64,000 nt of DNA, taken from Methylocystis iwaonis. GTDB taxonomy: Bacteria > Pseudomonadota > Alphaproteobacteria > Rhizobiales > Beijerinckiaceae. Below are positions 2,001-14,741 of this stretch, piece by piece; position 1 is the first letter of the stretch, and the number at the start of each line of letters is the position of its first letter. The DNA lies in the NCBI RefSeq assembly GCF_027925385.1, contig NZ_AP027142.1:2524001-2588000 (forward strand). The letters are read 5' to 3'. The notes below the pieces were generated by a model that saw nothing but the letters and a program-made list of their open reading frames with translations, ran no database searches and was not told the origin of the DNA. The position numbers were made by a program, and so were the translations under genes.

Positions 2001-2012
2001 GGGACGCTCGCC

Positions 2013-2597
2013 TCACATTCCGGGTTGTTCCTGGCCGTGCGGCAAATCGCTTCGGATCGCCACATAGTCGACTTTGATGCGCGCTGGCAGAAATCGGGCG
2101 ACCCGATGCAGCGCGCCGATGAAAAGGACTCCGACCTCCGCCTCGCCGAGCGTCTGATCGATGCGTTCGGCGATAAAGCGGTCGCGGGCGTCGAGAAGCG
2201 CCGAAGCCTTTGCGTCCGTCCGATCCGGCGATTGCATGAGCTTATATTCATCGACCAGCAGCGCCGGCGATTCTGTGCCCATGAGAGTCGCGCCGCCCCG
2301 CATGAGGCTTTCGAGAAGTTGATGGTTGGGACTTCCCTGCGCCGCAAGGTCCATCACCAATTCACTCTCCTTATCGCAGACCGGCAGGCTGTCCTGGTAG
2401 AGCTTGACGCGCGGGAGATCGAGGCGCAACGCCTTGATCGCCTCTGCGATGGAGCGCCAAATCGCGTCGAAGGCCGCACAGCGCTCCGCCCATTTGGCGG
2501 CGCCATGGCGGGCGATGAATGCGGCCTTATATGCGGGCGCGGCGGCGCCCATCTCAGCCATGCTGTGAAGGACAGGCACGTAGATCAATCGCGCCAT
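2013..2597 (-). CDS. Unrecognised 194-residue protein of the gas vesicle operon
   Basis: The start is set at MARLIYVPVLHS (2597) because an open extension further upstream runs into gvpH and has no better ribosome site; GGGGAG lies about 13 nt before 2597. The product is soluble-looking, with no signal peptide or membrane helix. The C-terminal half has RDRFIAERIDQTL followed by VLFIGALHRV, which faintly recalls the RNxxMAxxI and VGAxHL pattern of TraB/Tiki proteins, and the N-terminal VPVLHS could be a matching first His motif. That resemblance is weak and no function is claimed. It sits between gvpH and the CDC48-type ATPase, probably in one transcript, so it is likely an accessory gas vesicle gene. 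Confidence 0.75.
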   Translation of the reverse strand: MARLIYVPVLHSMAEMGAAAPAYKAAFIARHGAAKWAERCAAFDAIWRSIAEAIKALRLDLPRVKLYQDSLPVCDKESELVMDLAAQGSPNHQLLESLMRGGATLMGTESPALLVDEYKLMQSPDRTDAKASALLDARDRFIAERIDQTLGEAEVGVLFIGALHRVARFLPARIKVDYVAIRSDLPHGQEQPGM

Positions 2598-2628
2598 GAC
2601 ACAACGCGCTCCCCTGACGCACGCAACG

Positions 2629-3147
2629 CTAGGATTGCTTGGCGAGCCGCACTTCGAGAACGCCATTTCGCAGATTGAGTTGCGGAGCGTTCCCCGCAAG
2701 CTTTTCCTCGATGAAGGTTTCCTTGCGATAGAGCCGCACGCCCGATTTCGCTTCGAGAAGCAGAATGTCGCCGTCGAGAATGCAGCGAATATCCTCGCGC
2801 TCGACGCCTGGAAGCTCGAAAAGGAACACCAGCTCGTTTCCTTCGTCGAACATATCCGTCACCGGTTCGAGCATCTCGACAGTCGTTCGTTTCGCCGCGC
2901 GGCGCCGCGGTTGTTCCGGCGCCGGCGCCTCTTCCTCCGCCGCCACGCGCCCTTCGGCCGCCTCGCGAAGCGTGCGCGCGGCGAACGAATATTCCATCAC
3001 GCGACCATCCTTTTCATGGCGGCCCCGTCGCGGAAGATTGTCGAAGTCGGCCAGCACATTGAACAGGTTCGACAGGCCCCGCGCGATCTTCTCGAGCCCG
3101 GCGACGCCGGTGACGTCTTCGTTGTCGTTTCGGTCTTTCCGCGTCAT
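2629..3147 (-). CDS. gvpH: GvpH, Hsp20-like gas vesicle protein
   Basis: 172 residues from MTRKDRNDNEDV. The C-terminal half is an alpha-crystallin/Hsp20-like domain: VFLFELPGVEREDIRC, then GDILLLEA and the closing NGVLEVRLAKQS, the usual end of an Hsp20 fold. The N-terminal part is charged, with a Pro/Glu/Arg-rich linker. Its ATG overlaps the stop of the preceding gvpJ (ATGA), indicating translational coupling. GvpH proteins are considered accessory chaperones that keep hydrophobic Gvp proteins soluble or stable; that role is taken from the family. Confidence 0.85.
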   Translation of the reverse strand: MTRKDRNDNEDVTGVAGLEKIARGLSNLFNVLADFDNLPRRGRHEKDGRVMEYSFAARTLREAAEGRVAAEEEAPAPEQPRRRAAKRTTVEMLEPVTDMFDEGNELVFLFELPGVEREDIRCILDGDILLLEAKSGVRLYRKETFIEEKLAGNAPQLNLRNGVLEVRLAKQS

Positions 3148-3482
3148 GGATGCGCCTCCCCTGCTTTGCTTGGCGCCGCGACAAGGGCGCAAAGCGCCTC
3201 CTCCAGCCTTTCCATTCGCTGCTCGATCGCGCCGAGCTTGGCCTCGCCGTCCGACGCGCCGAGGCGGGCGCCATTGTGGTTCCACCAATCGAGCCCGAGC
3301 TCGCGCGCCTTGTCGACCGAGCAGACCACGAGCCTCAACTGAATAGTGAGGAGCTCGACCTCGACCAGCTTGATGGAAATATCGCCGGCGACCACGACGC
3401 CTTTGTCGAGAATGCGCTCCAACAAATCCGCGAGATTGGTGCTATCGACCGAATGCGTGATGGGTTGATGCATCGTTGACAT
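3144..3482 (-). CDS. gvpJ: GvpA-family paralogue (GvpJ-like minor wall protein)
   Basis: 112 residues from MSTMHQPITHS, with AAAGGA about 8 nt upstream. Residues of about 15-65 carry the GvpA family core (LADLLERILDKGVVVAGD, then VELLTIQLRLVV). An extra charged C-terminal tail of about 45 residues is absent from the 72-residue GvpA of this locus. Tailed GvpA relatives (GvpJ/GvpM/GvpS) are thought to nucleate or cap the vesicle rather than form the ribs. Which of these names fits best cannot be decided from sequence alone. The stop overlaps the gvpH start by 4 nt. Confidence 0.85.
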   Translation of the reverse strand: MSTMHQPITHSVDSTNLADLLERILDKGVVVAGDISIKLVEVELLTIQLRLVVCSVDKARELGLDWWNHNGARLGASDGEAKLGAIEQRMERLEEALCALVAAPSKAGEAHP

Positions 3483-3493
3483 GAACGGTCCTT

Positions 3494-4102
3494 TCACGGC
3501 GCGCTGTCGGAGACGCCAAACTGCAGCGAAAGCTCTCTCTCCGAGAAGCCGAATTGCCGTTGCAGACGCGTGATTTCCTGCGCCTGCGCGAAAAGCGCGG
3601 CGCCCAGTCGCTCGATCTGCGCATCCGACAGGCGTCCCCCTTCCATCCGCCGCACCGCCTGGCGTTCGAGGACATCATGAAGAACCCGCACGAGCGTCAG
3701 CACGAGGCGCAGAAGACCATCGGCGGTCGAGCGGCCGGAGCCCTCCGGCTTTCGCTCGAGTGCAGTCGCGATGCGATCCTCTTGCGGCAATTGAATTGGA
3801 TCGGCGGGAGATACGCTCCGCGGCGCGTGAGGTTCCGTGAGTGCGCCGGACGGCGTCGCGGACGCGGGAGGCAATTTTGGTTCGATGACCGATTGCGCCG
3901 GAGCGCCGTCCGGCCAAATCGTGTCGACGGCCCCGAGCAAGAGTCTCACGTCGAGAAAGATGAGGTCCACGTCGGCAAGACCAATGGTCAGATTGCCTTG
4001 CGCCGAGACGCCGCGATGCAGCAGGCGATCGAGCGCTTCCGAGAGCGAGAGATCGCGCTGCGGCGCACTCAAATTAGCCATGCCGCGCTCAGGAATTGAC
4101 AT
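3494..4102 (-). CDS. gvpK: GvpA-family domain fused to GvpK
   Basis: One uninterrupted 202-residue frame. The N-terminal part (about 15-65) is a GvpA/S-like domain: LSEALDRLLHRGVSAQGNLT, then DVDLIFLDVRLLL. A Pro/Ala/Glu-rich linker follows (about 66-125). The C-terminal part is GvpK: GLLRLVLTLVRVLHDVLERQ and then IERLGAALFAQAQEI. The start at 4102 is preferred because AGGGAAGGG lies about 10 nt upstream; it overlaps the gvpG stop by 14 nt. The second ATG at 4081 lacks a comparable site. GvpK and minor GvpA paralogues are usually separate proteins required for assembly, so the covalent linkage implies they act together. Confidence 0.85.
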   Translation of the reverse strand: MSIPERGMANLSAPQRDLSLSEALDRLLHRGVSAQGNLTIGLADVDLIFLDVRLLLGAVDTIWPDGAPAQSVIEPKLPPASATPSGALTEPHAPRSVSPADPIQLPQEDRIATALERKPEGSGRSTADGLLRLVLTLVRVLHDVLERQAVRRMEGGRLSDAQIERLGAALFAQAQEITRLQRQFGFSERELSLQFGVSDSAP

Positions 4103-4337
4103 CGGCGCCGCCCTTCCCTTGCAGGCTATCGAGCCGCGTCAGTAATTTTCCCTCCCGCGCGTCGAACTCCGCTTCGGTCAGCGCGCCAGTTTCGAGCGCA
4201 CGGTAAAGTTCCGATAGCTCCGCCATGATGGCGCGCTCCTCCGCCTCCCGCTCCTGCCGCGCGGCTTCGTCGATCTTTTCCAAAACGAACAGCAGCCCAC
4301 GCATCGGGGCGGCGAGCAAATCATCGATCAGCAGCAT
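4089..4337 (-). CDS. gvpG: GvpG gas vesicle accessory protein
   Basis: 82 residues starting MLLIDDLLAAPMRGLLFVL, the characteristic GvpG N-terminus, followed by a charged helix (IDEAARQEREAEERAIMAEL) and ALTEAEFDAREGKLLTRLD, also typical of the family. GGGGCGG lies just before the start. The gene overlaps the end of the preceding short ORF by 17 nt and the start of the gvpA/K fusion by 14 nt, so this is a tightly coupled part of the operon. GvpG is an essential minor assembly factor in other gas vesicle systems; its molecular role is not settled. Confidence 0.88.
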   Translation of the reverse strand: MLLIDDLLAAPMRGLLFVLEKIDEAARQEREAEERAIMAELSELYRALETGALTEAEFDAREGKLLTRLDSLQGKGGADVNS

Positions 4338-4485
4338 GGCGCCGCCCCTTTCGATCTGAATCCGGTGGGTTTGGCCCAAAGTTCGCCCTGCGCGTCGCAT
4401 TTCCCGATCTGACCTTGAAAATCTTGCTCAGAACGAAGCCGACGCTTTTGGTCACGATCTTCACGGCGTCATCGAGGATGAACAT
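4321..4485 (-). CDS. 54-residue truncated GvpG-like protein
   Basis: A short frame from MFILDDAVKIVTKSV fills the gap between gvpF/L and gvpG. Aligned without gaps to the adjacent GvpG, its first 22 residues share M1, D5, D6, F17, V18, L19, K21 and I22, with conservative changes at most hydrophobic positions. After that the sequence diverges into a basic, Pro/Asn-rich tail, and the long charged GvpG helix is missing. The simplest reading is a tandem GvpG paralogue reduced to its N-terminal amphipathic segment. It starts 5 nt after the gvpF/L stop, consistent with coupled translation. A non-functional remnant cannot be excluded. Confidence 0.6.
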   Translation of the reverse strand: MFILDDAVKIVTKSVGFVLSKIFKVRSGNATRRANFGPNPPDSDRKGRRHAADR

Positions 4486-4489
4486 CGCC

Positions 4490-5224
4490 CTAACCCTCGT
4501 GCGGCGCAAATTGCACGAAATTATGCGGCGGCCATGGGCCGGCGATGTTGAACGCAATATCTTCCTCGATCTCCGCCGCCGAGGCCTGCACAGCCCGCTC
4601 GAAATCCTCTAACCTTGCCCTGGGAACGAGCGCGGCCAAATTCGCAATCTCTCTATCGTTGCGAACCGGCAAAGAGACGACTTCGAGGCAGGCGTCGCCC
4701 AAGACCGAGATCACCTGAGCCGATTGCGCTTCCCGATAGCGCCGAAACGCCTCGTCTACCATTTGACCCAGACGCACTCTGGCCTCATGCGACGGCGGGC
4801 GGCTGCCGACATAGGTTCGGTCACGAGCGGCCTGCAACGCCGGGTGGCGCGCAACCAGATAAGCGATGGGATCGGCGGCTTCGATATTCAGCCGCACGCC
4901 CATTTCCACAGCGCCGGAAACTCTTTCCAACTGGCTGACGAGCCGGTCGCGCTGCCCGTCGAGAAACCGCCTCAGATCGTTTTCCGATTTCGCGATTGTG
5001 CCGAAGGCCATCGGCAGGAGATCGAATTTCGCGTTGAGCGCGGTGAGCACGCGCTGCGCTGCGGCGAGATTGCGCCTTTCGGCCCGCAGAGCGCCCACGG
5101 GACAATCGCTAACGATCGCGTTCAAGGGGCCCGAGCCCACAAGAAAGGTCGTACGATCGAGAACGCCCTGCAGGGGCGGCGGATCGTTGTCGTTGCTCGT
5201 CACCGCATAGACATAGAGGCCCAT
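4490..5224 (-). CDS. gvpF: GvpF/GvpL family gas vesicle protein (first copy)
   Basis: 244 residues beginning MGLYVYAVTSNDN, the conserved N-terminal strand of GvpF/L. LPMAFGTIAKSENDLRRFL and the C-terminal FNIAGPWPPHNFVQF (GPWPPYNFV-type ending) are diagnostic of the family. A strong GGGGGAGGAAG site precedes the ATG. GvpF/L proteins interact with GvpA in other organisms and are proposed to prevent its aggregation before it is added to the shell. A second copy (10172-11005) lies among the regulatory genes. Confidence 0.92.
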   Translation of the reverse strand: MGLYVYAVTSNDNDPPPLQGVLDRTTFLVGSGPLNAIVSDCPVGALRAERRNLAAAQRVLTALNAKFDLLPMAFGTIAKSENDLRRFLDGQRDRLVSQLERVSGAVEMGVRLNIEAADPIAYLVARHPALQAARDRTYVGSRPPSHEARVRLGQMVDEAFRRYREAQSAQVISVLGDACLEVVSLPVRNDREIANLAALVPRARLEDFERAVQASAAEIEEDIAFNIAGPWPPHNFVQFAPHEG

Positions 5225-5281
5225 CGATCTTCCTCCCCCGCCAACGACCCGAAGTCACGAACCAACGAAATAAGAAAGGAT

Positions 5282-5686
5282 TCAAATCTCTTCTTCTTCG
5301 ATATGACCATAGGCCCGGACCGTTAAATCCTCGTCGAGCTCGACGGAGTAAGTTTCTCTTTCGAGCACTTCTTGCGTCAGCGGCAAGCCGAGCATCTTCA
5401 CTTCGAGGTTCGGCACGAGAATTTCGGCTTCGGCGCTCCAACCGCCGTCGCCGTGCCGGATCGGCGCGATCTTGGTGATGCGCAGTTCCTTTGCGCCGAG
5501 TTCGGTCGTGAGAAACTGTTGAACAGCCGCACGGGCGCCCGACAATTTACCGCCGAAAGGCGCCGCGGGCGCTGCAGGCGCCGGTTTCGTTTTGGGCGCC
5601 GAGGACGCGGGAGGCGGCGGCGCTGGAGGCGGCGGCGCGGCGTTGGAGGAACTCTGTTCGGAGCCGATGTGAGTCTTAGGCGGCAT
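5282..5686 (-). CDS. gvpO: GvpO gas vesicle protein
   Basis: 134 residues from MPPKTHIGSEQSSS. This start is chosen over the ATG at 5725 because GGAG lies 9 nt before it, and the upstream extension is short and unsupported. The N-terminal 55 residues are a Pro/Ala-rich disordered segment. The C-terminal domain (ARAAVQQFLTTELGAKELRI, WSAEAEILVPN, then a Leu/Tyr-rich end with an acidic EEEEI terminus) matches GvpO. GvpO is a small accessory protein needed for vesicle formation in haloarchaea and found in many bacterial clusters. Confidence 0.85.
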   Translation of the reverse strand: MPPKTHIGSEQSSSNAAPPPPAPPPPASSAPKTKPAPAAPAAPFGGKLSGARAAVQQFLTTELGAKELRITKIAPIRHGDGGWSAEAEILVPNLEVKMLGLPLTQEVLERETYSVELDEDLTVRAYGHIEEEEI

Positions 5687-5725
5687 TGGATCATTCTCCG
5701 TGAACTGGCGTTGAACCTGCGCCAC

Positions 5726-6049
5726 TCAATAAGTGAAGGAAAAGCGCTTCGACGCCTGCCGCATGCCGATCGGCGACTTGCGAACCGCTGCGACGGGATG
5801 GGCCGGCGGCGCCGTTCCATTCATCTTTGCCGTAATTTCCCCGATTTCCTTGTCGATTTCGCGAAATCTCGCCTGTATGGCGTCAGAACGGTCGGTCGCC
5901 GCTCGCAGCTCCATCGAGCGCCGCGCGCGTTCGAGTTCGAGGAAGCTCATCCGCAGATAGGCCTTGTGCGCGGGGACGCTTTTGTCGTTGCGCCCGGTCA
6001 AGGTTCGCAGATCGTTCAGGCCGCGGGACGGCTGTCGATGCATCGCCAT
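5726..6049 (-). CDS. Small coiled-coil gas vesicle operon protein
   Basis: 107 residues from MAMHRQPSRGLNDLRTL, preceded by GGGAGAAGG. The middle (about residues 25-75) is a charged helix (KAYLRMSFLELERARRSMEL, then IQARFREIDKEIGEI), likely a coiled coil. The C-terminus is basic and ends in SFTY. I do not recognise a named family with certainty. The position directly after gvpN matches that of gvpV in the Serratia sp. ATCC 39006 locus as I recall it, but homology was not tested. The 17-nt spacing from gvpN indicates the same transcript. Confidence 0.75.
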   Translation of the reverse strand: MAMHRQPSRGLNDLRTLTGRNDKSVPAHKAYLRMSFLELERARRSMELRAATDRSDAIQARFREIDKEIGEITAKMNGTAPPAHPVAAVRKSPIGMRQASKRFSFTY

Positions 6050-6065
6050 GTCGCCTTCTCCCAGC

Positions 6066-7082
6066 TCAAAAATGCACAGAGTGATTGGCCGGGCCTTGCG
6101 CATGCATGCGCTGCGCGCGTTCGAGCGCTTCCAGCTCGAATTGCAGCAACAGCTCGTCGACGACGTCGGCCGTAAATTCTGCGGGCTTGGCGGAATTTTG
6201 AGACCCGCGACCAAGGATATCCCGGCACGCCCAGCGGAAGACCGGATTGGAGACGCTGGCCTCGCCGCCGCGCGCCGCCAGCACGCGGGCGATGGCGATC
6301 GATGCGCGCAAGGTCGGATAATGCGGGTCCGATCCCTGACGGCGGCACAAGCGAACGAAGTCGACCACCTTTTCCGCGCGCGCCTGATCGACTCCGCCTT
6401 TTTTCGCAGCAATCGCAACCTCGGTATCGCGGTCATAGTGATCGAAATAAAGTGTGATCATGCGATCGAGCAAAGCGTCCTGCGCGCGATAGACGCCCGC
6501 ATATTCAACTGGATTCGACGTGAAGATGGCGCGAAAATGTGGATGCACCTTGATGTATCCCTCGCCGCGCCCATGCAGACCCGGAACATTGAGGACCCCT
6601 TCCGACAATATGCTCAGGAAGGGGTTGTTCGCCTCCGGCTTGCTACGGTTGAACTCGTCATAAATGATCGTATGACCGAGACGGCAGGCGGTGGTGATGC
6701 GATTGTCGGTCCACAGCGCGCGTCCCTCTTCCTGCAGCTTCACGACGGAAGAAATATAGTTATCGACCACGCGCGATCTGCGATATCCGCTCTCGCGTCC
6801 GATCAGATCGGAGCTGCCGAACTCGTGATCGCCATGGAGCAAGATGCTCGGACGGCCGAGCTGCGCAGCGACATGAAACGCCAGCGTGGTTTTGCCGCTG
6901 CCCGCCGGCCCCGAAAAATGCACGGCATATCCGGCGTCGAGATAGGCGAGCGCACGATCCGCAATCTCCTGAACCGCCGGCGAGCTGACGAAAGCGTCGC
7001 TCGGTCCGAGCGCGATGGAGCCGTCGTCGTCGGAGAAATCCTCGGCGTCCTGACCTAGGCTGGCGAGTGCTATCGCGCTCAT
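6066..7082 (-). CDS. gvpN: GvpN, MoxR-type AAA+ ATPase of gas vesicle assembly
   Basis: 338 residues with P-loop GPAGSGKT at 58-65, the conserved HGDHEFGSSDLIGRESGY segment of GvpN, Walker B TIIYDEFNRSKPE and FTSNPVEYAGVYRAQDALLD. Length and motifs are typical of GvpN, a MoxR/CbbQ-type ATPase thought to remodel the growing shell, in cyanobacteria together with GvpC. GGAAAGG lies about 7 nt before the ATG. It follows the gvpC-like gene after a 123-nt gap in which I see no other gene. Confidence 0.95.
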   Translation of the reverse strand: MSAIALASLGQDAEDFSDDDGSIALGPSDAFVSSPAVQEIADRALAYLDAGYAVHFSGPAGSGKTTLAFHVAAQLGRPSILLHGDHEFGSSDLIGRESGYRRSRVVDNYISSVVKLQEEGRALWTDNRITTACRLGHTIIYDEFNRSKPEANNPFLSILSEGVLNVPGLHGRGEGYIKVHPHFRAIFTSNPVEYAGVYRAQDALLDRMITLYFDHYDRDTEVAIAAKKGGVDQARAEKVVDFVRLCRRQGSDPHYPTLRASIAIARVLAARGGEASVSNPVFRWACRDILGRGSQNSAKPAEFTADVVDELLLQFELEALERAQRMHAQGPANHSVHF

Positions 7083-7205
7083 GACGTGACCTTTCCAAAA
7101 ATGCGCTGAACTGCCGTGCGCGTTCGCGTGGCGGAGATGAGAAGAGGAAGCCAGATGGCTGTTGGCGCCGTGGCTTCCGAATTCGGTTGGAGGGCCCGCA
7201 CTCCC

Positions 7206-7658
7206 TTAATGGTGAGCGGACGCTTTTCCGTGCCAGATCGCAGCGGCGTGCTTGCGGTCGCGCGCATATTCCGAGAAAGAGCGGTGCAAGGACGACGCTC
7301 GATCGTGATTGGCCGTCGCGAAGGATGCGAGAAGGGCGGCGACGCCGTTCGTCAGATCGCGCATGAACGCATCGGCCTTTTCGTGATAGGCTTTGCTTTC
7401 GCGTGCGCGGTTCGACTTCAGACCATTCAGAGTCGCGCGGACTTCATTGCTGCGCGCCACCGTCGCTCTTCGGAGCTGCGCCGCCTGGTCGCGACCCGAT
7501 CTGATCCTCGCGGCCTTCAGATTGTCCAGAAGCGCCTCGATGTCCTTGTGGCGATTTATTGCGGCGTCCTTGATCCGTTCGGCAAGCTCTTCCCGTGAGT
7601 GCCGGCCCGAGTCGATGCCGCTTTTGACGCGCGAATATCCTTCCGACAACTTCGCCAT
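7206..7658 (-). CDS. gvpC: GvpC-like helical repeat protein
   Basis: 150 residues from MAKLSEGYSRVKSG, with GGAGG about 9 nt upstream. Residues 32-64, 65-97 and 98-130 align as three 33-residue units: I40/V73/V106, A42/A75/A108, L44/L77/L110 and L47/L80/F113 are in register, and R51/R84 and R53/R86 follow. A fourth partial unit runs to the end. Period and pattern match cyanobacterial GvpC, whose repeats contain ARIAQAEKQAQEL; here the first unit has ARIRSGRDQAAQL (the comparison is from memory). The gvpA-gvpC-gvpN order also matches. GvpC binds the outside of the vesicle and stiffens it. Low overall conservation means this could instead be an unrelated helical protein. Confidence 0.65.
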   Translation of the reverse strand: MAKLSEGYSRVKSGIDSGRHSREELAERIKDAAINRHKDIEALLDNLKAARIRSGRDQAAQLRRATVARSNEVRATLNGLKSNRARESKAYHEKADAFMRDLTNGVAALLASFATANHDRASSLHRSFSEYARDRKHAAAIWHGKASAHH

Positions 7659-7689
7659 GATCCAATCCTCCATCAGAAGTTTCCAAACT

Positions 7690-7726
7690 GCTGGAAGGGC
7701 GGGTTTAAAAAACACGCCCTTCCAGC
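7690..7726 (-). promoter_or_regulatory. Perfect intercistronic hairpin between gvpA and the gvpC-like gene
   Basis: Two 12-base arms (7690-7701 and 7715-7726) are exact inverse complements around a 13-base A/T-rich loop. On the transcribed minus strand no U-run follows, so it is not a classical terminator. A partial stop or a 3' stabiliser that leaves gvpA mRNA in excess over downstream genes is the likely role, matching the need for far more GvpA than accessory proteins. Confidence 0.7.
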
Positions 7727-7740
7727 GATGGCGGATAGAC

Positions 7741-7959
7741 TTAGGCGGGGGCCGCCGCGGAAGCGGTCAGGCCGACAGCTTCGGCGTATTTCAGGTAGGT
7801 CTCGACCGAGGCCACCACAACGCGCGCTTCGATAGTGATCAGCTCGATGCCGACGAGCGAGACCTTGACCCAGGCGTCGATCACGATGCCCTTGTCGAGG
7901 ATGCGGTCGACAACTTCGCCGAGGCTTGACGAGTCCACAGATTTTTGAACGCGTGCCAT
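7741..7959 (-). CDS. gvpA: GvpA, major gas vesicle shell protein
   Basis: 72 residues, the standard GvpA length, with the near-invariant core [40 protein letters not shown] and [12 protein letters not shown]. GvpA forms the ribbed, gas-permeable protein wall. GGAGAAG lies about 5 nt before the ATG. It is the first structural gene after the -24/-12 promoter at 8045-8060 and is followed by a strong hairpin, which together suggest high, separately tuned expression. Confidence 0.98.
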
Positions 7960-8044
7960 GAAGCTTCTCCATTCTTAAAAGCGCTTTGAGCACTTTGCGA
8001 ACACACCGAAGAGAACTCATCATTCCCCCGGCCGAATTGAATAG

Positions 8045-8060
8045 AGCAACCGCGGCGCCA
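8045..8060 (-). promoter_or_regulatory. Sigma54 (-24/-12) promoter of the gvpA operon
   Basis: Minus strand reads TGGCGC-N5-TTGCT; the GG of the -24 element (8055-8060) and the GC of the -12 element (8045-8049) have the required spacing. The predicted start near 8034 leaves a 5' leader of about 75 nt before gvpA. An NtrC-type activator with the sigma54-contact motif GAFTGA is encoded just upstream in the same locus, which strongly supports the call. Confidence 0.8.
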
Positions 8061-8120
8061 GAGGGGCCGGTAAGCTGACAAATCGATTTCAGGCTTATAT
8101 TTCATTGCTTTTCAATTTTG

Positions 8121-8153
8121 CGCGTTGGCATGGTTTCAAGTATCGCGTTGGCA
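8121..8153 (-). promoter_or_regulatory. Direct-repeat candidate enhancer for the sigma54 promoter
   Basis: The ten bases CGCGTTGGCA (plus strand) occur twice, at 8121-8130 and 8144-8153, spaced 23 nt start to start, about two helical turns. They lie roughly 87-120 nt upstream of the predicted gvpA transcription start, the usual place for binding sites of NtrC-type activators. That the locus-encoded activator binds here is inference. Confidence 0.5.
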
Positions 8154-8187
8154 GGTCGGGCGTCGGCGCCCGGGTCCAGGGGCGGCG

Positions 8188-8583
8188 TTACCCTTTGGCG
8201 CCCTTGCTCACAGCCGCCGCGATTGCGTCGATTTGAAAAGGTTTCGCAAGGAAACCGTCGATCGTCGACGCCCGCATCGCATCGAGGATGCCGGCGTCGT
8301 CCGCGAGGAAATATCCCGAGATCAGGATGACGCTCATGGCGGGGCGTATGATGCGGAAGCGCGCGCTCAGACGGAACCCGTCCATATCGGGCAAACGCGC
8401 GTCCACGAAAGCGATCGGGAAGGTTTGCTGACTGATCAAGCCGAGCGCTTCCTGCGCGCTATTGGCGGTAACCGCCATCCAATCGATCCGGCTCAAAGCG
8501 GCTTCGAGCACCCAGCACATGTCTTGATCGTCGTCCACGACGAGCGCTGTTTTCGGCGCGAGGCAAGCGGGAAAAGGAGTCAA
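8188..8583 (-). CDS. Receiver-only response regulator of the gas vesicle locus
   Basis: 131 residues: a CheY-like receiver domain with the acidic pocket VDDDQD, phospho-acceptor D61 in FVDARLPDMDG, the Ser switch in ILISGYF and the conserved Lys in FLAKPF. There is no output domain. The start is TTG at 8583, with GGAGGG about 10 nt upstream; no ATG fits. It lies 30 nt after the sensor kinase stop, so the two are probably co-transcribed. It may be a phosphate sink, or a phosphorelay or allosteric partner of the kinase. Confidence 0.88.
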   Translation of the reverse strand: MTPFPACLAPKTALVVDDDQDMCWVLEAALSRIDWMAVTANSAQEALGLISQQTFPIAFVDARLPDMDGFRLSARFRIIRPAMSVILISGYFLADDAGILDAMRASTIDGFLAKPFQIDAIAAAVSKGAKG

Positions 8584-8613
8584 TGCGTCGAACCCTCCAG
8601 AGAGCCATTCCGC

Positions 8614-10113
8614 TCAAGACGCCTCGCGCGCTGCAGGGATGCGAACGGCGAATGTCGTCCCCATGCCCAAGGCCGTCCGCACGCTCACATCGCCGCCATG
8701 CTGGCGAACGATGGAATGCGACACCGACAGACCGAGGCCTGAACGTCTGCTATCCGAGCGAGTCGTAAAAAACGGATCAAAAATCTTCCTCAAATGCGCC
8801 TCGGGAATACCGGGGCCGCTATCGCCGATCTCGACGATCACTTCTTTGCCGTCGCGGCGCACGTCGATTGTCAACACGCCGCCATTCGGCATCGCCTGGA
8901 ATGCGTTGAGCATAAGATTGATGAAAACGAGCTCCAAAAGGTTTTGCACGCCTTCGGCGCAAATATCAGCGGTCTCCGCTGGCGGGTTCCACTCATATCG
9001 CGTGCCGACCGCCGCTTCGCCGGCAGCGAACATCAGGGCGTTCTTCAGCATATTCACGACGTTGACCTGCGTCGTTTCGGTGATCGGCTGCGGCCGGGCG
9101 AATCGAAGCAGACTTTCGACCACGAGCGATGCGCGATCTATGCCGCCGATCACCTTATCGATACATTCGCCGAGCAGAATGGGCGAGCCCATTCTATTTC
9201 TCATGAGCTGCGCCGCGGCGGAGCTGACCCCGAGGGGATTGCGAATCTCATGCGCGATTCCGCCGATGACAATGCCCAACGCCGCAAGCTTCTCGCCCTG
9301 ATGGATTTGAGCTTCCATCGCCCGCTGCTCCACGAGGCTGCGGCCAACCACGACGACGCCCGTCACGTCGCCGGTATGGCTGGTCATCCGCGATAAGCGC
9401 CAGGAGACTGGTATCGTCTCGCCGCTCTTGCAGCGCATCGGCCATTCGATCGAGTGGCAGTCGTCGATTTCGCTGATGCCCCGGAAGCTGGATTCGACTT
9501 CCTGTTTGTGCGGTTCCTCGAAATGACCGGACAATTCGGAGCCGCGAACTTCGCCCTCCGCATAGCCCGTCGATTTTTCCGCGGCTGTATTCCAGGTCAT
9601 GATGGCGCCGTGCGAGTCCGTCGAGATGATCAGATCGCCGGCGCTCTCGACGACGCTCGCAAGATGCAACTGCATACGCCGCACCTCCTCCCCGAGCTGC
9701 AAGAGATCCGTCACATCGTCCATGACGAGGATGACGCCGCGCGAGCCGCCCTGGAGCTGCAAGGGACAAATGCTGTAGGAATAAGTTCTCAGAGCGACGC
9801 CCGGCGCACGATAGGTCATCCGGCGGCGTCGAAGCGTTTTTCCCGACCCGATGACTTCGCGTATCTGCTGATCCAGGGGCGTATCCTGGAACGCCGCCGG
9901 GAAAATTTCCTGCAGGCGTTTTCCAAGTGTCGTATGCAAGCTTCCATGCGACTTTTCGAGAAAGTTGCTGTTCACCGTTCTGACGATGAGGCTTTCGTCG
10001 AGAATGAGAATCGAGGAAGGGATCGTATCCATCACTGCATGGAAGAAGCTTTCGTGATCGAGCGTGTCTAGAAACATCGGCTTCTCGAAAGGTTTGTGGC
10101 CGAAGATCTGCAA
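8614..10113 (-). CDS. NtrB-like PAS sensor histidine kinase
   Basis: 499 residues, no transmembrane segment. Two PAS domains come first (about 20-130, with SSILILDESLIVRTVN, and about 150-260, with DLIISTDSHGAIMTWN). The dimerisation/phospho-acceptor domain has H288 in GIAHEIRNPL, then the ATPase N-box (ELVFINLMLNAFQAM), G1 (IGDSGPGIPE) and G2 (SGLGLSVSH). It is a cytoplasmic NtrB-type kinase. It lies between a GvpF/L gene and a receiver protein, and the NtrC-type activator is encoded upstream, so a kinase-activator pair controlling gas vesicles is the likely arrangement. The PAS ligand cannot be read from sequence. Confidence 0.93.
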   Translation of the reverse strand: MQIFGHKPFEKPMFLDTLDHESFFHAVMDTIPSSILILDESLIVRTVNSNFLEKSHGSLHTTLGKRLQEIFPAAFQDTPLDQQIREVIGSGKTLRRRRMTYRAPGVALRTYSYSICPLQLQGGSRGVILVMDDVTDLLQLGEEVRRMQLHLASVVESAGDLIISTDSHGAIMTWNTAAEKSTGYAEGEVRGSELSGHFEEPHKQEVESSFRGISEIDDCHSIEWPMRCKSGETIPVSWRLSRMTSHTGDVTGVVVVGRSLVEQRAMEAQIHQGEKLAALGIVIGGIAHEIRNPLGVSSAAAQLMRNRMGSPILLGECIDKVIGGIDRASLVVESLLRFARPQPITETTQVNVVNMLKNALMFAAGEAAVGTRYEWNPPAETADICAEGVQNLLELVFINLMLNAFQAMPNGGVLTIDVRRDGKEVIVEIGDSGPGIPEAHLRKIFDPFFTTRSDSRRSGLGLSVSHSIVRQHGGDVSVRTALGMGTTFAVRIPAAREAS

Positions 10114-10171
10114 GAAGAGATTGTTTCTTTGCGCCAGCGACGTTTTTGCGCGTCCCCGAACGCCCGCGATC

Positions 10172-11005
10172 TCAATTCGCGGAATGAAGCGGCGGACGGT
10201 CCAGCGGCGGTCGAAAACTGAAGGGCGGCCAAGGCCCCGACAGAGTCAGTTCGACGGTCTCGGCCCCAAGCCGGTTGTTGAGTTCCGCAACGCGCCGGCT
10301 CAAAGCGGCGGCGTTTTCCTTGGGGACGAGAAACGCATGGCGCGCGACCAGATCGGTCCCTTCGAGATTGCGGTTGCGTCGCCCCGCCGTCAGTGGCTCG
10401 AGCTCCTGCACCAGCCGATCGGCGACGGCCGCCGCTTCCGCGCGGCCGAAGTCGCGCAGCGATTCTTTGTCTCGGCACAGGCGCATGTAGCGGATGCCGC
10501 TCGTCAGCGACGCCCACTCCGGCCACGCCTTGCGCGCGAGTTGATCCAGAATTGCCGGATCATCGAGACGCGCCGCCGCGCGAAGCTCCCACTCCTCTTT
10601 ATCGGACGCATTGAGAAGGAAACGCGCGATCGTCGCCTCATGCGCGGCCATGAAGGCGCCCAGACTCTCGATGCTCGTGTAAAGCGTTCCAAAAGGGACG
10701 GGAAATACTGGCGAGAATTGCATCGCCCACGCCAGAATTTCCGCATGGCGGCGAACGCGCGGCGCCAGCCATGAGACGTCGGTCAAATGACGCTCCGCAT
10801 CGACGCCGCAGAAGTCCGCGATCGGGACAAGGTCGACGATCGCAGCGACGGCGCCGGCGCGATGCAGCCGCAAGGCGCGCCCCTCCGGCGCAGGCAATCG
10901 CTCGGCAGAGATGCGATCGGGGTCGACGAAGGCAATGAGAGAGATCGCCTGCTCGATCGACCCTGAAATGGCGCCGTCCGTTTCGGGTTGATCCGGCGTC
11001 CTCAT
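10172..11005 (-). CDS. gvpL: GvpF/GvpL family protein (second copy)
   Basis: 277 residues. The N-terminal strand AISLIAFVDPDRISAERL, the FSPVFPVPFGTLYTSIESL block and the C-terminal LTLSGPWPPFSFRPPLD identify a GvpF/L protein, diverged from the copy at 4490-5224. Its start overlaps the stop of the NtrC-type regulator by 4 nt (ATGA), so a structural gas vesicle gene is translated with the regulatory genes and not with the main structural operon. Confidence 0.88.
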   Translation of the reverse strand: MRTPDQPETDGAISGSIEQAISLIAFVDPDRISAERLPAPEGRALRLHRAGAVAAIVDLVPIADFCGVDAERHLTDVSWLAPRVRRHAEILAWAMQFSPVFPVPFGTLYTSIESLGAFMAAHEATIARFLLNASDKEEWELRAAARLDDPAILDQLARKAWPEWASLTSGIRYMRLCRDKESLRDFGRAEAAAVADRLVQELEPLTAGRRNRNLEGTDLVARHAFLVPKENAAALSRRVAELNNRLGAETVELTLSGPWPPFSFRPPLDRPPLHSAN

Positions 11006-12393
11006 TGCCGGATGTCTCCGCCCTCACCTTCCAGTCTTTTCAGCTTCAAGCGGTATGTCTTGTAATCGACGCCGAGCAGCCGTGCGGCTTCCGCCTTGTT
11101 GCCCTTTGCGCGATTGAGCGCGTCGAGCACGGCGTCGCGTTCGACCGCCCGCACCTGGTAGCGCATCTGATCGCGCAAAGGCGCGGCGGCGGCCATTTGC
11201 GTTTGCGAAGGGGGCAGCGGCGCGCGATTGAGACGATCGGCGATATGCGCGGCGGAGACGGCGTCCGCCGACGTCAGCGCCGCGCGCCGCATCACATTGC
11301 GCAATTCTCTCACATTGCCGGGCCAATGATGCGCCTGCAACAGCTCGAGCGCTTTCGCGTCGATGTCGATCGGCGCCTGTCCCAGACAGTCACGCGCCTG
11401 CACCAGAAAGCGCTCCGCGAGAAAAGGCACGTCCTCCGGGCGCGCGCGCAAGGGCGGCACCGAGATCACATATTCGGCGAGACGATAGTAGAGGTCTTCG
11501 CGAAAGTCCCCCGCCTCGGCGCGCTCTTTGAGAGCGTCATTCGTGGCGGCAATAACACGGACGTCGAGGCTGATTTGTTCGCTGCCGCCCACGCGATGGA
11601 TCGTGCGCGCTTCGAGCGCGCGCAGAAGCGCCTTTTGTCCGGCGATCGAGAGATTGCCGATCTCGTCGAGGAAGATCGTCCCCCCCTTGGCCGCGGCCTC
11701 GAAGCACCCACAATGGCGTGCGGCTGCGCCCGTGAACGCCCCCTTCTCATGACCGAAAAATTCGCTGTTGATGAGGGATTCGGCGATCGCGCCGCAGTCG
11801 ACGACAATGAACGGCTTGGCGACGCGGCCGCTGTGCCGATGCAGGCTTTGCGCGACGATCTCCTTGCCGCTTCCGGTCTCGCCCTGAACGACGACCGAGT
11901 AGTCGGAGCGGGCGACCGCTTCAATCTCATCGGCGAGCTTTTGGATGGCGGCGCTTTTCCCCATGAGGCCGAATATGTCGGCGCGCACATTTTCGGCGCT
12001 CTGCTTGTGCAGCGCCGCTCGCCGGGCGACAGCCCGCTTCACGACATCGACGAACTGATCGTTGCGAAACGGCTTGGTGAGATATTCGAACGCGCCTTCT
12101 TTGATGGCGTTGATCGCGCCGGTGATCGTGCCGTAAGCCGTGGCGATGACAATGGGGAGACGCCGGTCGCGTTGCAATAATCGGCGCAAAACCTCCTCGC
12201 CGCCGATTCCGGACATGCGCATATCGAGAACAACCGCGTCTGGCGGATGGCGCGACGCCAATTCGAGACCTGGCTCGCCGGCTTGCGCTTCCATCACGTC
12301 AAATCCGGCGTCCACCAATATGCTGCGCATTGCCCAGCGCATATCGTGATCGTCGTCGATCAGCAGGACCGAGCTTCGATTGCGCGTCAACAT
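11002..12393 (-). CDS. NtrC-type sigma54-dependent response regulator
   Basis: 463 residues from MLTRNRSSVLLIDDDHD. The receiver domain has phospho-acceptor D57. The central AAA+ domain has GETGSGKE at 171-178, GAFTGA (sigma54 contact) at 218-223 and Walker B GGTIFLDEIGN. The C-terminal Fis-type helix-turn-helix reads AVLDALNRAKGNKAEAARLL. This is a complete bacterial enhancer-binding protein. It fits the -24/-12 promoter found in front of gvpA. The family parallels GvrA of the Serratia sp. ATCC 39006 gas vesicle cluster as I recall it. An ATG at 12408 is an alternative start; neither has a strong ribosome site. Confidence 0.95.
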   Translation of the reverse strand: MLTRNRSSVLLIDDDHDMRWAMRSILVDAGFDVMEAQAGEPGLELASRHPPDAVVLDMRMSGIGGEEVLRRLLQRDRRLPIVIATAYGTITGAINAIKEGAFEYLTKPFRNDQFVDVVKRAVARRAALHKQSAENVRADIFGLMGKSAAIQKLADEIEAVARSDYSVVVQGETGSGKEIVAQSLHRHSGRVAKPFIVVDCGAIAESLINSEFFGHEKGAFTGAAARHCGCFEAAAKGGTIFLDEIGNLSIAGQKALLRALEARTIHRVGGSEQISLDVRVIAATNDALKERAEAGDFREDLYYRLAEYVISVPPLRARPEDVPFLAERFLVQARDCLGQAPIDIDAKALELLQAHHWPGNVRELRNVMRRAALTSADAVSAAHIADRLNRAPLPPSQTQMAAAAPLRDQMRYQVRAVERDAVLDALNRAKGNKAEAARLLGVDYKTYRLKLKRLEGEGGDIRQ

Positions 12394-12408
12394 GATAGAG
12401 CCAATCAT

Positions 12409-12708
12409 TTTTGAGGCTGGGGGGCCAAAGCGCCCGCCAGCACGTGCAATCTCAGAGCTGAAGCGAGCTTAGTCTACCAACGCGTCCAACTTCATTGATT
12501 ACTGTCAAGTTCGCTACTTATTCCTCCTGGAGCCCCAATAAAAGTAAATACGGCGTTAGCATTTCGAGCAAATTGTAGCGATTACGCTTGATGTTTACAT
12601 TCACACATATCTTTCTTTGCTGAAATGACAGTCGCCCGCGCGAGAATATGACTGTTCAATGACGCTGTGCGCGGCGCCGCGAGCCCTTGAAGGCGAACAT
12701 CAATTTGC
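12409..12708. other. AT-rich divergent intergenic region
   Basis: No gene is seen between the regulator (minus) and the 63-residue orphan (plus). The stretch is clearly lower in GC than its surroundings. CCAACGCG at 12477-12484 repeats the core of the elements upstream of gvpA and could indicate self-control of the regulator, but eight bases can recur by chance. Confidence 0.4.
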
Positions 12709-12723
12709 TGGCAAGATTGTTGC
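12709..12723 (+). promoter_or_regulatory. Second sigma54 (-24/-12) promoter match
   Basis: TGGCAAGATTGTTGC has the -24 GG and -12 GC exactly 12 bases apart, with TGGCA and TTGC both matching consensus. The predicted start near 12734 gives a leader of about 59 nt before the 63-residue gene at 12793. Its place next to the sigma54 activator gene makes co-control with the gas vesicle operon plausible. Confidence 0.6.
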
Positions 12724-12792
12724 GTGCGCGCGATTGCGCACCCGCGTCGCGCGCAACTTGTTACAAAAACGCCAAATGCAAGGGGAGGATAC

Positions 12793-12984
12793 ATGGCGGA
12801 CGAGAAGGTCACAGTCGAACAACTGCCAAATGGCAAATGGGCCTGTTTTCTCCATCTGGCGGGCCATGACGAGCCCATCAATCTGGGCCGGGAATTCAAG
12901 AACGACGAACAGGCCGAAAACTGGCTGAATGTTTCGGAGTCCGTCACCGCCATCGAGATGATGGTGCGGAAATACAAGAAATAG
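12793..12984 (+). CDS. 63-residue soluble orphan protein
   Basis: Starts MADEKVTVEQLPNGKWAC with GGGGAGG 5 nt before the ATG. The product is small, charged and soluble (PINLGREFKNDEQAENWL, ending in VRKYKK), without signal or membrane segments. I do not recognise the family. It is transcribed divergently from the gas vesicle regulator and preceded by a sigma54-type promoter match, so it may belong to the same regulon. The NGKW and DEQAENWL pattern resembles small proteins of about 60 residues of unknown function in alphaproteobacteria; this is an impression only. Confidence 0.75.
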   Translation: MADEKVTVEQLPNGKWACFLHLAGHDEPINLGREFKNDEQAENWLNVSESVTAIEMMVRKYKK

Positions 12985-13198
12985 CCACTCGAGCGCCCCG
13001 TGCTTGCATTCGGCCCGGGGCGTCTCTCACTCGTGTTGCGCTCACGGGGCTCCCTGCCCGCCGATAATATTTGCGCGGATCGCCGGCCGTAAGCTCGTCC
13101 CGGCGTCGTTCAGTCCTCGGCGGAGCCGGCCTTTGATGCTTATGGAAGAACAGGCGCGGCCGCCCCATCTTCCTCGGCAGAAGCCGGGAGGCGCCCCC

Positions 13199-13924
13199 AT
13201 GCATTTCAGCGATGCGCAATATCTGCCTATAGCGGCGCCGGCCTTCGCCCTGCTGGCGGGCGTCGTCGTCGTGCTCGTCATTCTCGTCGAGCTGCGCATT
13301 CTCAAATACGCCTATATGCAATTGGGCGTCAGCTCCGGAACGGCTGTCTTCCTGCTCCTGGCCTCGCTGCTCGGCAGCTATATCAATATTCCGGTGGCGA
13401 CGCTCGGGAGCGAACCGATCATAGATGCGCGCGAGGTCGTCTATTACGGCGTTCCCTATGTCGTGCCGAGATTTGTCGAGGAGCCTCAAGTCATTCTTGC
13501 CGTCAATGTCGGCGGCACCGTCATCCCGACCGTGCTGTCGATCTTCCTGCTGTCGCGAAACGCCATCTGGATCAGGGGCGCCATTGCGGTCGCCTGCGTC
13601 GCTGCGATCAGCTATGCTTTAGCAGAGCCGGTACGCGGCGTCGGCATCGCGCTGCCAATCTTCGTCGCCCCGCTGGCGGCGACGACCATTGCGGCGATCA
13701 TCTCCTGGCGCCATCTTGCGCCGCTCGCCTATGCAAGCGGGAGCCTCGGCGTTCTGGTCGGCGCGGATCTGTTGAATTTTGACAAGCTCGCAGGCCTCGG
13801 CACGCCCGTGCTGTCGATCGGCGGGGCCGGCACATTCGATGGAATTTTCCTGACCGGCGTGCTCTCGGTTCTGCTCGCGAGCCTGATCGGGGGCCGCACG
13901 CAAAGCGCCGTACAGGCTTCCTGA
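13199..13924 (+). CDS. DUF1614 family integral membrane protein
   Basis: 241 residues from MHFSDAQYLPIAAP; the start is chosen because GGGAGG lies just upstream, and the longer frame adds a composition-poor extension. About seven hydrophobic helices are visible. GSYINIP, VNVGGTVIPTVLS and GVLVGADLLNFDKL are hallmarks of DUF1614 proteins found in methanogens and various bacteria. Function is unknown. It is not obviously part of the gas vesicle locus, although it follows the orphan gene on the same strand. Confidence 0.85.
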   Translation: MHFSDAQYLPIAAPAFALLAGVVVVLVILVELRILKYAYMQLGVSSGTAVFLLLASLLGSYINIPVATLGSEPIIDAREVVYYGVPYVVPRFVEEPQVILAVNVGGTVIPTVLSIFLLSRNAIWIRGAIAVACVAAISYALAEPVRGVGIALPIFVAPLAATTIAAIISWRHLAPLAYASGSLGVLVGADLLNFDKLAGLGTPVLSIGGAGTFDGIFLTGVLSVLLASLIGGRTQSAVQAS

Positions 13925-13949
13925 AGGCGAAAGTGAAAGCGACGACATC

Positions 13950-14741
13950 TTGAGACTGCCGACTTATTTCGTCTCCCATGGCGGCGGCCCCTGGCCGTGG
14001 GTTCCCGAATGGCGCCGCCGCTTCGTCAATCTCGAAGCCGCTTTCGCCCGCATGCCCTCCGAAATCGGCGAGCGCCCGAAGGCGATCATCGTCGTCTCGG
14101 GCCATTGGGAAAGCCCGGAATTCGCAGTGATGTCGGCGCGCCAGCCGCCGATGGTCTATGATTATTCCGGCTTTCCTCCAGAGACTTATGACATCGTCTA
14201 TCCCGCGCCCGGCGCGCCGGCGTTGGCCGCGCGCGCCGCAAACCTCATCCGCGCCGCAGGCCTACCCGCGCGGCTCGATGAGACGCGCGGCTTCGATCAC
14301 GGCGCCTTCGTGCCGCTCTATGCGATGTATCCGGCGGCGGACGTCCCGGCGATCCAGGTGTCGCTCAAGACGGGCTACGATCCCGCCGAGCATCTTGCGC
14401 TCGGCCGCGCTTTAGCGCCGCTGCGCGAGGAAGGCGTCCTCATCATCGGCTCGGGCCTCAGCTACCACAATCTGCGCCTCTTTGGCCCGCAGGCGCGGGA
14501 GCCGTCAGAGGCTTTCGATCAATGGCTCGCCGCGGCGCTCGCGGCGGCGCCCGATGTGCGCAGACAAGCCATCATAGACTGGGCCAAGGCCCCTTACGCC
14601 CGCATCTGCCATCCCCGCGAGGACCATCTCGCGCCGCTTTTCGTCGCGCTCGGCGCAGCCGAGGCCGAGACGGCTGTCCGCGTCTATCATGACGTGGGGC
14701 TGTTCGGCGGCGTGACGGCGTCGAGCTACCGCTTGGGTTGA
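13950..14741 (+). CDS. DODA/YgiD-like class III extradiol dioxygenase
   Basis: 263 residues from a TTG start (no ATG or GTG fits). H10 in VSHGGGP, H52 in VVSGHWE, H117 in GFDHGAFVPLYAMYP and a C-terminal DHLAPLFVALGAA match the metal-ligand pattern of the YgiD/4,5-DOPA dioxygenase (LigB-type) family. Members cleave catechol rings using a bound divalent metal; the substrate here is unknown. It starts 25 nt after the DUF1614 gene and may be co-transcribed with it. Confidence 0.88.
   Translation: MRLPTYFVSHGGGPWPWVPEWRRRFVNLEAAFARMPSEIGERPKAIIVVSGHWESPEFAVMSARQPPMVYDYSGFPPETYDIVYPAPGAPALAARAANLIRAAGLPARLDETRGFDHGAFVPLYAMYPAADVPAIQVSLKTGYDPAEHLALGRALAPLREEGVLIIGSGLSYHNLRLFGPQAREPSEAFDQWLAAALAAAPDVRRQAIIDWAKAPYARICHPREDHLAPLFVALGAAEAETAVRVYHDVGLFGGVTASSYRLG

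Follow-up and report, generated by a model that had tools for sequence, protein, structure and literature searches.

A conserved -24/-12 promoter element upstream of gvpA in Methylocystis iwaonis and a candidate enhancer for GvrA-type activators of gas vesicle genes

To our knowledge, the control of gas vesicle formation has been worked out in few organisms. The closest described system is that of Serratia sp. ATCC 39006, in which GvrB belongs to the PAS-type kinases and GvrC is a single-receiver protein. There, the gvpA1 start, mapped by 5'-RACE, adjoins a consensus sigma-54 site, gvpA1 is expressed less in gvrA, gvrB or gvrC mutants, and gvrA is said almost always to open the second operon of proteobacterial gvp clusters (PMC4982088). 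An rpoN insertion mutant forms no vesicles and has low gvpA1 transcription (PMC11778176, citing Hill 2021), gvpA1 expression is raised by low oxygen (PMC11778176), and vesicles are likewise reduced when GvrA, GvrB or GvrC is present in excess (PMC5601083).

The stretch of DNA analyzed here (the window) covers 64 kb of the Methylocystis iwaonis genome and carries a gas vesicle locus on the minus strand, in the order gvrA, gvpF/L, gvrB, gvrC, gvpA, an unmatched gene, gvpN, gvpF/L, gvpG, Gas_vesicle-GvpK, a GvpA-family gene and gvpH. The regulatory gene set consists of a gvrA-like sigma-54 activator (11002–12408; receiver, sigma-54 AAA+ and Fis-type HTH domains, with both the GAFTGA motif and the phospho-acceptor Asp present), a gvpF/L gene (10172–11005; Pfam GvpL_GvpF, 2.7e-35), a gvrB-like PAS-PAS histidine kinase (8614–10113; PAS_4, PAS, HisKA and HATPase_c) and a gvrC-like single receiver domain (8188–8583; Response_reg). 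These domains and motifs bear out the first-pass annotation, which had read a complete GAFTGA activator, a PAS kinase and a receiver in the gvpA locus. The predicted gvpA operon begins with the main shell protein gene itself (7741–7959; 72 residues, Pfam Gas_vesicle, 1.7e-16), followed by a gene with no Pfam match (7206–7661; a hypothetical gene occupies the same place in L074 and L075) and a gvpN-type AAA ATPase (6066–7082; AAA_5, 3.7e-14; the gene in this position in L074 and L075 is annotated as gvpN). Domain matches then identify a second gvpF/L gene (4490–5224), gvpG (4089–4400), a single reading frame with Gas_vesicle (GvpJ/A-like) and GvpK domains (3494–4102), a further GvpA-family gene (3144–3497) and a gvpH-like gene (2629–3288; PF05455, 24.5 bits against a cut-off of 22). 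Beyond gvpH lies a gene without a Pfam match (2013–2699) in which a Y-x-P-[IV]-[IL]-H motif was seen by eye; a similar gene of about 216 residues, also recognized by eye, precedes gvrA in non-alphaproteobacterial clusters (L006, 219–869; L039, 1097–1720; and others). A 731-residue frame runs beyond the left end of the window, where the gene order of Methylosinus sp. C49 places an AAA ATPase next.

Three features of the Serratia type are found in the window: an activator of NtrC architecture with GAFTGA, a -24/-12 element before the leading gvpA, and a kinase with a single receiver. As in Serratia ATCC 39006, the NtrC-like activator, GvrB and GvrC are encoded together with gvpF-type genes, there in a second operon (PMC4982088, PMC11778176), and a sigma-54 site lies upstream of gvpA (PMC4982088). 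The two loci differ in that the gvr genes of the window precede gvpA and point the same way, and in that the gvr gene set of the window has one gvpF/L gene, compared to two in Serratia. Because the gvpA1 sigma-54 site, GvrA, GvrB, GvrC and rpoN have been published for Serratia, the circuit is known in kind. The statement in the first-pass annotation that regulators of these types occur in Serratia sp. ATCC 39006 was correct (PMC4982088, PMC11778176). Its suggestion that the module is poorly described is not supported, as the Serratia start site, the need for GvrA, GvrB and GvrC and the rpoN phenotype are already in print (PMC4982088, PMC11778176).

Close counterparts are the loci of Methylocella tundrae and Methylosinus sp. 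C49, which share the order gvrA-gvpF/L-gvrB-gvrC-gvpA-x-gvpN and have a -24/-12 element at a similar distance. GvpA is 95.8% and 93.1% identical to that of the window, respectively, and GvrA 65% and 51%; the 464-residue GvrA of L080, whose genome is placed in the same genus as the window, is 66% identical. In Methylocella tundrae and Methylosinus sp. C49 the cluster is plasmid-borne, in contrast to the window, which lies on a 3.7-Mb contig. Gas_vesicle matches were found in 13 of the 397 family genomes, this one included, and the patchy distribution together with the plasmid-borne clusters suggests horizontal spread. The gvrA of Methylocella tundrae is annotated as two overlapping frames in one record (L074, 7647–9042; NZ_LR536451.1) but matches as one piece in another record of the species (NZ_CP139088.1).

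More distantly, ZraSR, NtrBC and other group I systems also combine a histidine kinase with an activator of receiver-AAA+-Fis HTH architecture. Their inputs and targets differ from those of the window, where the kinase has two PAS domains and an extra single receiver is encoded. The gvp genes of another alphaproteobacterium, Cereibacter (Rhodobacter) sphaeroides, are likewise under a phosphorelay, but the regulator described in that report is CtrA, not a sigma-54 activator (PMC11999139).

The -24/-12 element of gvpA, TGGCGCCGCGGTTGCT, lies at 8045–8060 on the minus strand. It reads TGGCGC-N5-TTGCT from 8060 to 8045 and is separated by 85 nt from the gvpA ATG at 7959, confirming the position given in the first-pass annotation. 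Based on the -12 position, transcription is predicted to start near 8034. The element is the sole match to TGGCACNNNNNTTGCW with at most one mismatch in the 64-kb window. The match alone is not significant, since chance would yield 1.49 of them in 64 kb and 72 of 100 shuffles contained at least one; its significance lies in its position within the 228-bp gap between gvrC and gvpA, where the score, from a matrix written to the published consensus, was reached in 1 of 3000 dinucleotide shuffles. Genome-wide, TGGCNCNNNNNTTGCW has 33 matches, compared to 15 for a reversed control pattern, and the genome contains one rpoN gene. It is very likely, from its sequence and placement, that this element is the promoter of the predicted gvpA operon and that sigma-54 would be used here. 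A sequence occurring twice upstream of this promoter, TGCCAACGCG, was considered and dropped because it is altered in the same-species genome L079 and absent from L081. No Rfam family matched positions 1–14000 of the window at the gathering score.

Comparison across the family supports this assignment. The best -24/-12 site lies 73–85 nt before gvpA, with scores of 9.7–15.8, in 13 of 13 copies from 11 genomes with gvrA (the window, L075, L079–L083, L085–L089 and L091). Of these, L079 represents the same species as the window, and L088 and L089 are duplicated gvpA copies in the genome of L087, which retain the element without adjacent gvr genes. The window has gvrA and a strong -24/-12 element, and the two gvrA-less alphaproteobacterial clusters of the family have neither (best scores of 4.3 in L092 and 5.0 in L093). 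Two family loci depart from the full gene set: L083 gave no match to either gvrB or gvrC, and L085 lacks gvrC and has a short gvrB, yet both retain gvrA and the -24/-12 element upstream of gvpA.

The scan of other gvp loci that the first-pass annotation had proposed was also positive. The sample comprised 57 named loci fetched with GvpA, 11 alphaproteobacterial stretches, five plasmid stretches and the window; GvpA matches below 85 bits (L060, L061, L062, L065 and L066) or with less than 100 bp of upstream DNA were left out of the scoring. At a score of 11, a site was found at 12 of 17 gvpA genes with an NtrC-like gene and at 2 of 30 without (Fisher p = 8e-6, uncorrected for kinship); the corresponding counts were 10/17 and 1/30 at a score of 12, and 7/17 and 1/30 at 13 (p = 0.002). 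NtrC-negative loci with less than 5 kb upstream or less than 3 kb downstream (e.g. L007, L010, L016, L021 and L048) were omitted from the Fisher test. The two NtrC-negative loci with a site are L077, a solitary gvpA that fits the model, and L027, from a cyanobacterium. The contig labels of the site-positive metagenome-assembled genomes, which may be wrong, include Desulfobacterales, Desulfarculus, Desulfomonile, Deltaproteobacteria, Acidobacteria, Terriglobia, Phycisphaerales, Anaeromyxobacter and Bacteroidia; the last of these, L032, was counted as positive with an imperfect -12. Among the loci with an NtrC-like gene, five lack a site: L029, L030 and L036, of Bacteroidota/Chlorobi type, and L040 and L049, of Desulfobacteraceae type. 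The activators of L030, L032 and L036 carry GSFTGA and a different HTH. In the Bacteroidota-type loci L031, L036 and L043, a TGGC-N7-TTTGTA-like element is located 76–78 nt before gvpA, which could be a sigma-54 variant or another type of promoter. Together, the 13 of 13 family copies and the 12 of 17 against 2 of 30 loci support the reading of a sigma-54 promoter at gvpA with an activator encoded in the same locus, and its conservation in other proteobacteria.

The gammaproteobacterial order of Lamprocystis (G1479) contains Gas_vesicle genes in 22 of 195 genomes. All 32 leading gvpA copies read there, from 18 genomes, have a -24/-12 element scoring at least 12, positioned 67–72 or 154–204 nt before the gvpA start; a single one of the reversed and antisense controls from these stretches, in L138, attained that score. 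By comparison, none of three genomes lacking gvr genes in the fetched stretch has a site (best scores of 11.3 in L151, 5.1 in L153 and 8.0 in L154). The 32 copies are not independent events, since many are paralogues, and the same holds for counts within any one order, where promoters are related or paralogous. They include L157, which is the previously seen L021, and do not include gvpA copies 2 and 3 of the L143 array, which have no site. The purple-sulphur-type genomes G1479, G1536, G1607, G1631 and G1639 each have 6–8 Gas_vesicle-domain matches, with several gvpA copies on different contigs.

The element could in principle be a chance resemblance, with gvpA expression driven by a promoter of sigma-70 type or by transcription running on from gvrC. 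The expected frequency of one-mismatch matches in 64 kb is compatible with this, as is the terminator scan, which found 6 sites against 5.2 expected and none between the gvrC stop and the gvpA promoter. Chance resemblance is nevertheless very improbable given that the element is kept at the same distance in all 13 gvpA copies from family genomes with gvrA while its surroundings diverge, and at the duplicated gvpA copies that have no adjacent gvr genes; moreover, a search of 7900–12800 for sigma-70-type promoters, limited to an E. coli-type consensus, gave no match where 1.3 were expected. It is similarly improbable that the promoter is indeed read by sigma-54 but owes its main activation to some other enhancer-binding protein, with GvrA acting mainly elsewhere. 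Such a division of labor would be in keeping with the GvrA site in the clade of the window being a candidate only; against it stand the co-occurrence of -24/-12 elements and gvr genes across loci and the requirement of GvrA for full gvpA1 expression reported for Serratia (PMC4982088). Activation of the 8060–8045 promoter by GvrA is the preferred reading.

Inspection by eye of the upstream DNA at site-positive loci outside the alphaproteobacteria revealed a recurring palindrome, TATGGAA-N4-TTCCATA, that precedes the -24/-12 element in non-alphaproteobacterial relatives. When one mismatch and exactly 4 nt between ATGGAA and TTCCAT are allowed, the box is present in 10 of 18 training promoters and 0 of 28 controls, which is not an independent test because these same training promoters are where the box was first noticed by eye; they were promoters with a site or something like it, three of them alphaproteobacterial, and the controls were hand-picked without a nearby gvrA. 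In 87 loci (1.34 Mb; L084, a duplicate of L075, was left out), a spacing of 4 gave nine perfect matches, compared to 0 or 1 at every other spacing from 0 to 10 and a mean of 0.05 for 59 permuted arms. Of these matches, seven precede gvpA, and the other two, in L006 and L039, directly precede the gvrA-containing gene set. With one mismatch, the same spacing gave 21 matches (10 before gvpA, 3 before the gvrA set and 8 elsewhere), compared to 1–10 at other spacings.

Whole genomes show a similar distribution. In 12 genomes or records, the 18-mer occurs within one mismatch at 26 places, against 6 for the reversed pattern: 15 before gvpA, 2 before the gvrA set, 2 in a tandem pair in L113 and 7 elsewhere. 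Seven of the 15 box-bearing gvpA genes had no part in motif discovery (L099, L102, L104, L108, L117, L119 and L120), and five of these seven also have a -24/-12 element by the pattern used. The L113 pair (3429–3592) stands with a -24/-12 element before a kinase-like gene of a Desulfobacterales genome, on a contig other than that of the gvp cluster. Across the 195 Lamprocystis-order genomes, the perfect core ATGGAA-N4-TTCCAT occurs at 63 places, compared to 20 for the reversed control. Twenty-seven cores, in 15 of the 22 genomes with such genes, are located 229–383 bp upstream of a Gas_vesicle domain; 4 of these were known before (L010, L077, L102 and L108) and 23 were not. The other 36 are away from gvpA-type genes, 8 within the 22 Gas_vesicle genomes and 28 within the other 173. 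Twenty-two of the 27 gvpA-linked boxes were fetched for promoter reading, and these account for 22 of the 32 leading copies described above, selected for having the box; the other 10 were chosen for having no perfect core. Counting 7 of these 10 that match within two mismatches, the box is present in 29 of the 32, and a more degenerate form was seen in L146, L148 and L149. No box was found in L151, L153 and L154, whose fetched stretches contain no gvr genes. Many of the 32 copies are gvpA genes that stand alone, suggesting that they are regulated in trans.

The box probably represents the GvrA enhancer in delta-, gamma- and some other relatives, judging from its position and distribution. A less probable alternative, although not a negligible one, is that the box is bound by some other regulator found alongside gvp clusters. 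In its favor, 28 of the 63 perfect cores occur in genomes without Gas_vesicle matches, the box stands at solitary gvpA copies without neighboring gvr genes, and the pairing of GvrA with the box is drawn from sequence comparison. On the other hand, the box accompanies the -24/-12 element in most of the gvpA promoters inspected, also stands before the gvrA gene set of L006 and L039, and is missing from the three Lamprocystis-order genomes without gvr genes in the fetched stretch. It also goes with GvrA proteins that have a common DYKT recognition helix: the alphaproteobacterial proteins read DYKTYR, and in the others the residues after DYKT are mostly I/V/M and H/Y (this comparison leaves out the GvrA of L145, whose frame could not be followed from the start of the match).

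Neither the window nor L074 or L075 has the box within 500 bp before gvpA, and none was seen in the other family promoters inspected. Since it is not found there, the enhancer in the clade of the window is a guess, for which the best candidate is an inverted repeat, CGGGCG-N4-CGCCCG, at 8157–8172 on the minus strand, about 105 bp upstream of the -24 element. Measured from the T of -24, the repeat lies 112–113 bp upstream in 5 of 13 family rows and 130–132 bp upstream in 3 of 13; weaker forms occur in L075, L080, L086 and L091, and L083 has none. Its 6-4-6 geometry and the register of its GG/CC are identical to those of the TATGGAA box. Because the repeat is not enriched genome-wide (12 places, compared to 13 for the control), it remains a candidate only, and from these sequence features we give it an even chance of being the GvrA site. 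A terminator of the gvr gene set, of an untypical kind, would equally account for it, and the chances of that reading are also balanced: the repeat is just behind the gvrC stop and has a GC-rich stem, but in the promoters inspected it is not followed by five consecutive T, and it is kept before gvpA in L085, where no gvrC match was found. The repeat is also kept at the duplicated copies L088 and L089, whose upstream DNA may, however, descend from the end of gvrC.

These observations suggest a mechanism for the gvpA promoter. Sigma-54 RNA polymerase would bind at 8060–8045 and, as is general for sigma-54, stay in a closed complex. GvrA (11002–12408), produced from the upstream gvrA-gvpF/L-gvrB-gvrC gene set, would bind upstream, loop to the polymerase and open the complex through its GAFTGA-bearing AAA+ ring, as its domain architecture implies; genetic demonstration of the need for GvrA is confined to Serratia. 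GvrB would sense a cue through its two PAS domains and phosphorylate GvrA, and GvrC, a lone receiver, may tune or relay the phosphate. The enhancer is most likely TATGGAA-N4-TTCCATA in the delta-, gamma- and some other relatives, with CGGGCG-N4-CGCCCG as the best candidate here. We consider this account, taken as a whole, highly probable.

As regards the cue, GvrA matches many group I activators. The kinase had been called NtrB-type in the first-pass annotation, a term that covers its architecture only: the nearest solved sequence to the GvrB kinase core is ZraS, with NR(II) at 1.3e-6. The second PAS domain of GvrB weakly resembles the PAS domain of FixL. A FixL-like haem PAS oxygen sensor was considered but is unlikely, because the position that we take to be the proximal haem-ligand histidine of FixL is occupied by a valine of GvrB in the alignments. 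The GvrB orthologues share a YRAPG motif in the first PAS domain and a cysteine at 317, each in at least 85% of rows, and Asp61, Lys114 and Cys23-Trp24 of GvrC are conserved in at least 85% of 16 rows. A redox role of these conserved residues is possible, as a guess. A nitrogen-related signal, one of those suggested initially, is neither supported nor excluded: nothing found here speaks for it, and the cue given for Serratia in the published material drawn on here is low oxygen (PMC11778176).

A possible stem-loop was identified right at the beginning of the predicted gvpA leader, from about +3 (8005–8032, minus strand), and in ten other leaders. In the alignment, 93.9% of cells are paired, and the weak covariation score was matched by 5 of 500 shuffles. 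We grade the structure as possible because a single pair is changed on both sides and a one-column shift gives a nearly equal score (0.221 compared to 0.252).

As far as our searches show, the comparative part of this analysis, namely the conservation of the -24/-12 element across lineages and the candidate GvrA enhancer, is new. Among the matches listed, mainly from the open-access literature, there was no work on a GvrA enhancer and no cross-phylum survey. The main text of PMC4982088 does not contain the words enhancer, palindrom or inverted repeat, and that of the Desulfovibrio sigma-54 regulome paper contains neither TTCC nor GGAA. The binding site of the activator, a point absent from the first-pass annotation, is the more informative part: a conserved promoter with a candidate enhancer offers a binding site directly testable by gel shift, and the candidate enhancer predicts which gvpA copies share control. 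A bolder reading, somewhat less likely than not, is that the GvrA family runs a sigma-54 buoyancy regulon through TATGGAA-N4-TTCCATA in at least three phyla by contig label, including the solitary gvpA genes dispersed among the chromosomes and plasmids of purple sulphur bacteria, and that in methanotrophic alphaproteobacteria this family has moved to a new operator of the same geometry, CGGGCG-N4-CGCCCG. Within the alphaproteobacteria, two regulatory types are separated, GvrA/sigma-54 and, from print, CtrA. Acoustic reporter design could also make use of such a native sigma-54 promoter, which comes with a two-component switch of its own. The genome of Methylocystis iwaonis has three pmoA-family matches (contig C1, at 730347, 1891236 and 2946087; two share identical scores), and the host is therefore a methanotroph. 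In such an organism, buoyancy could place cells where methane meets oxygen.
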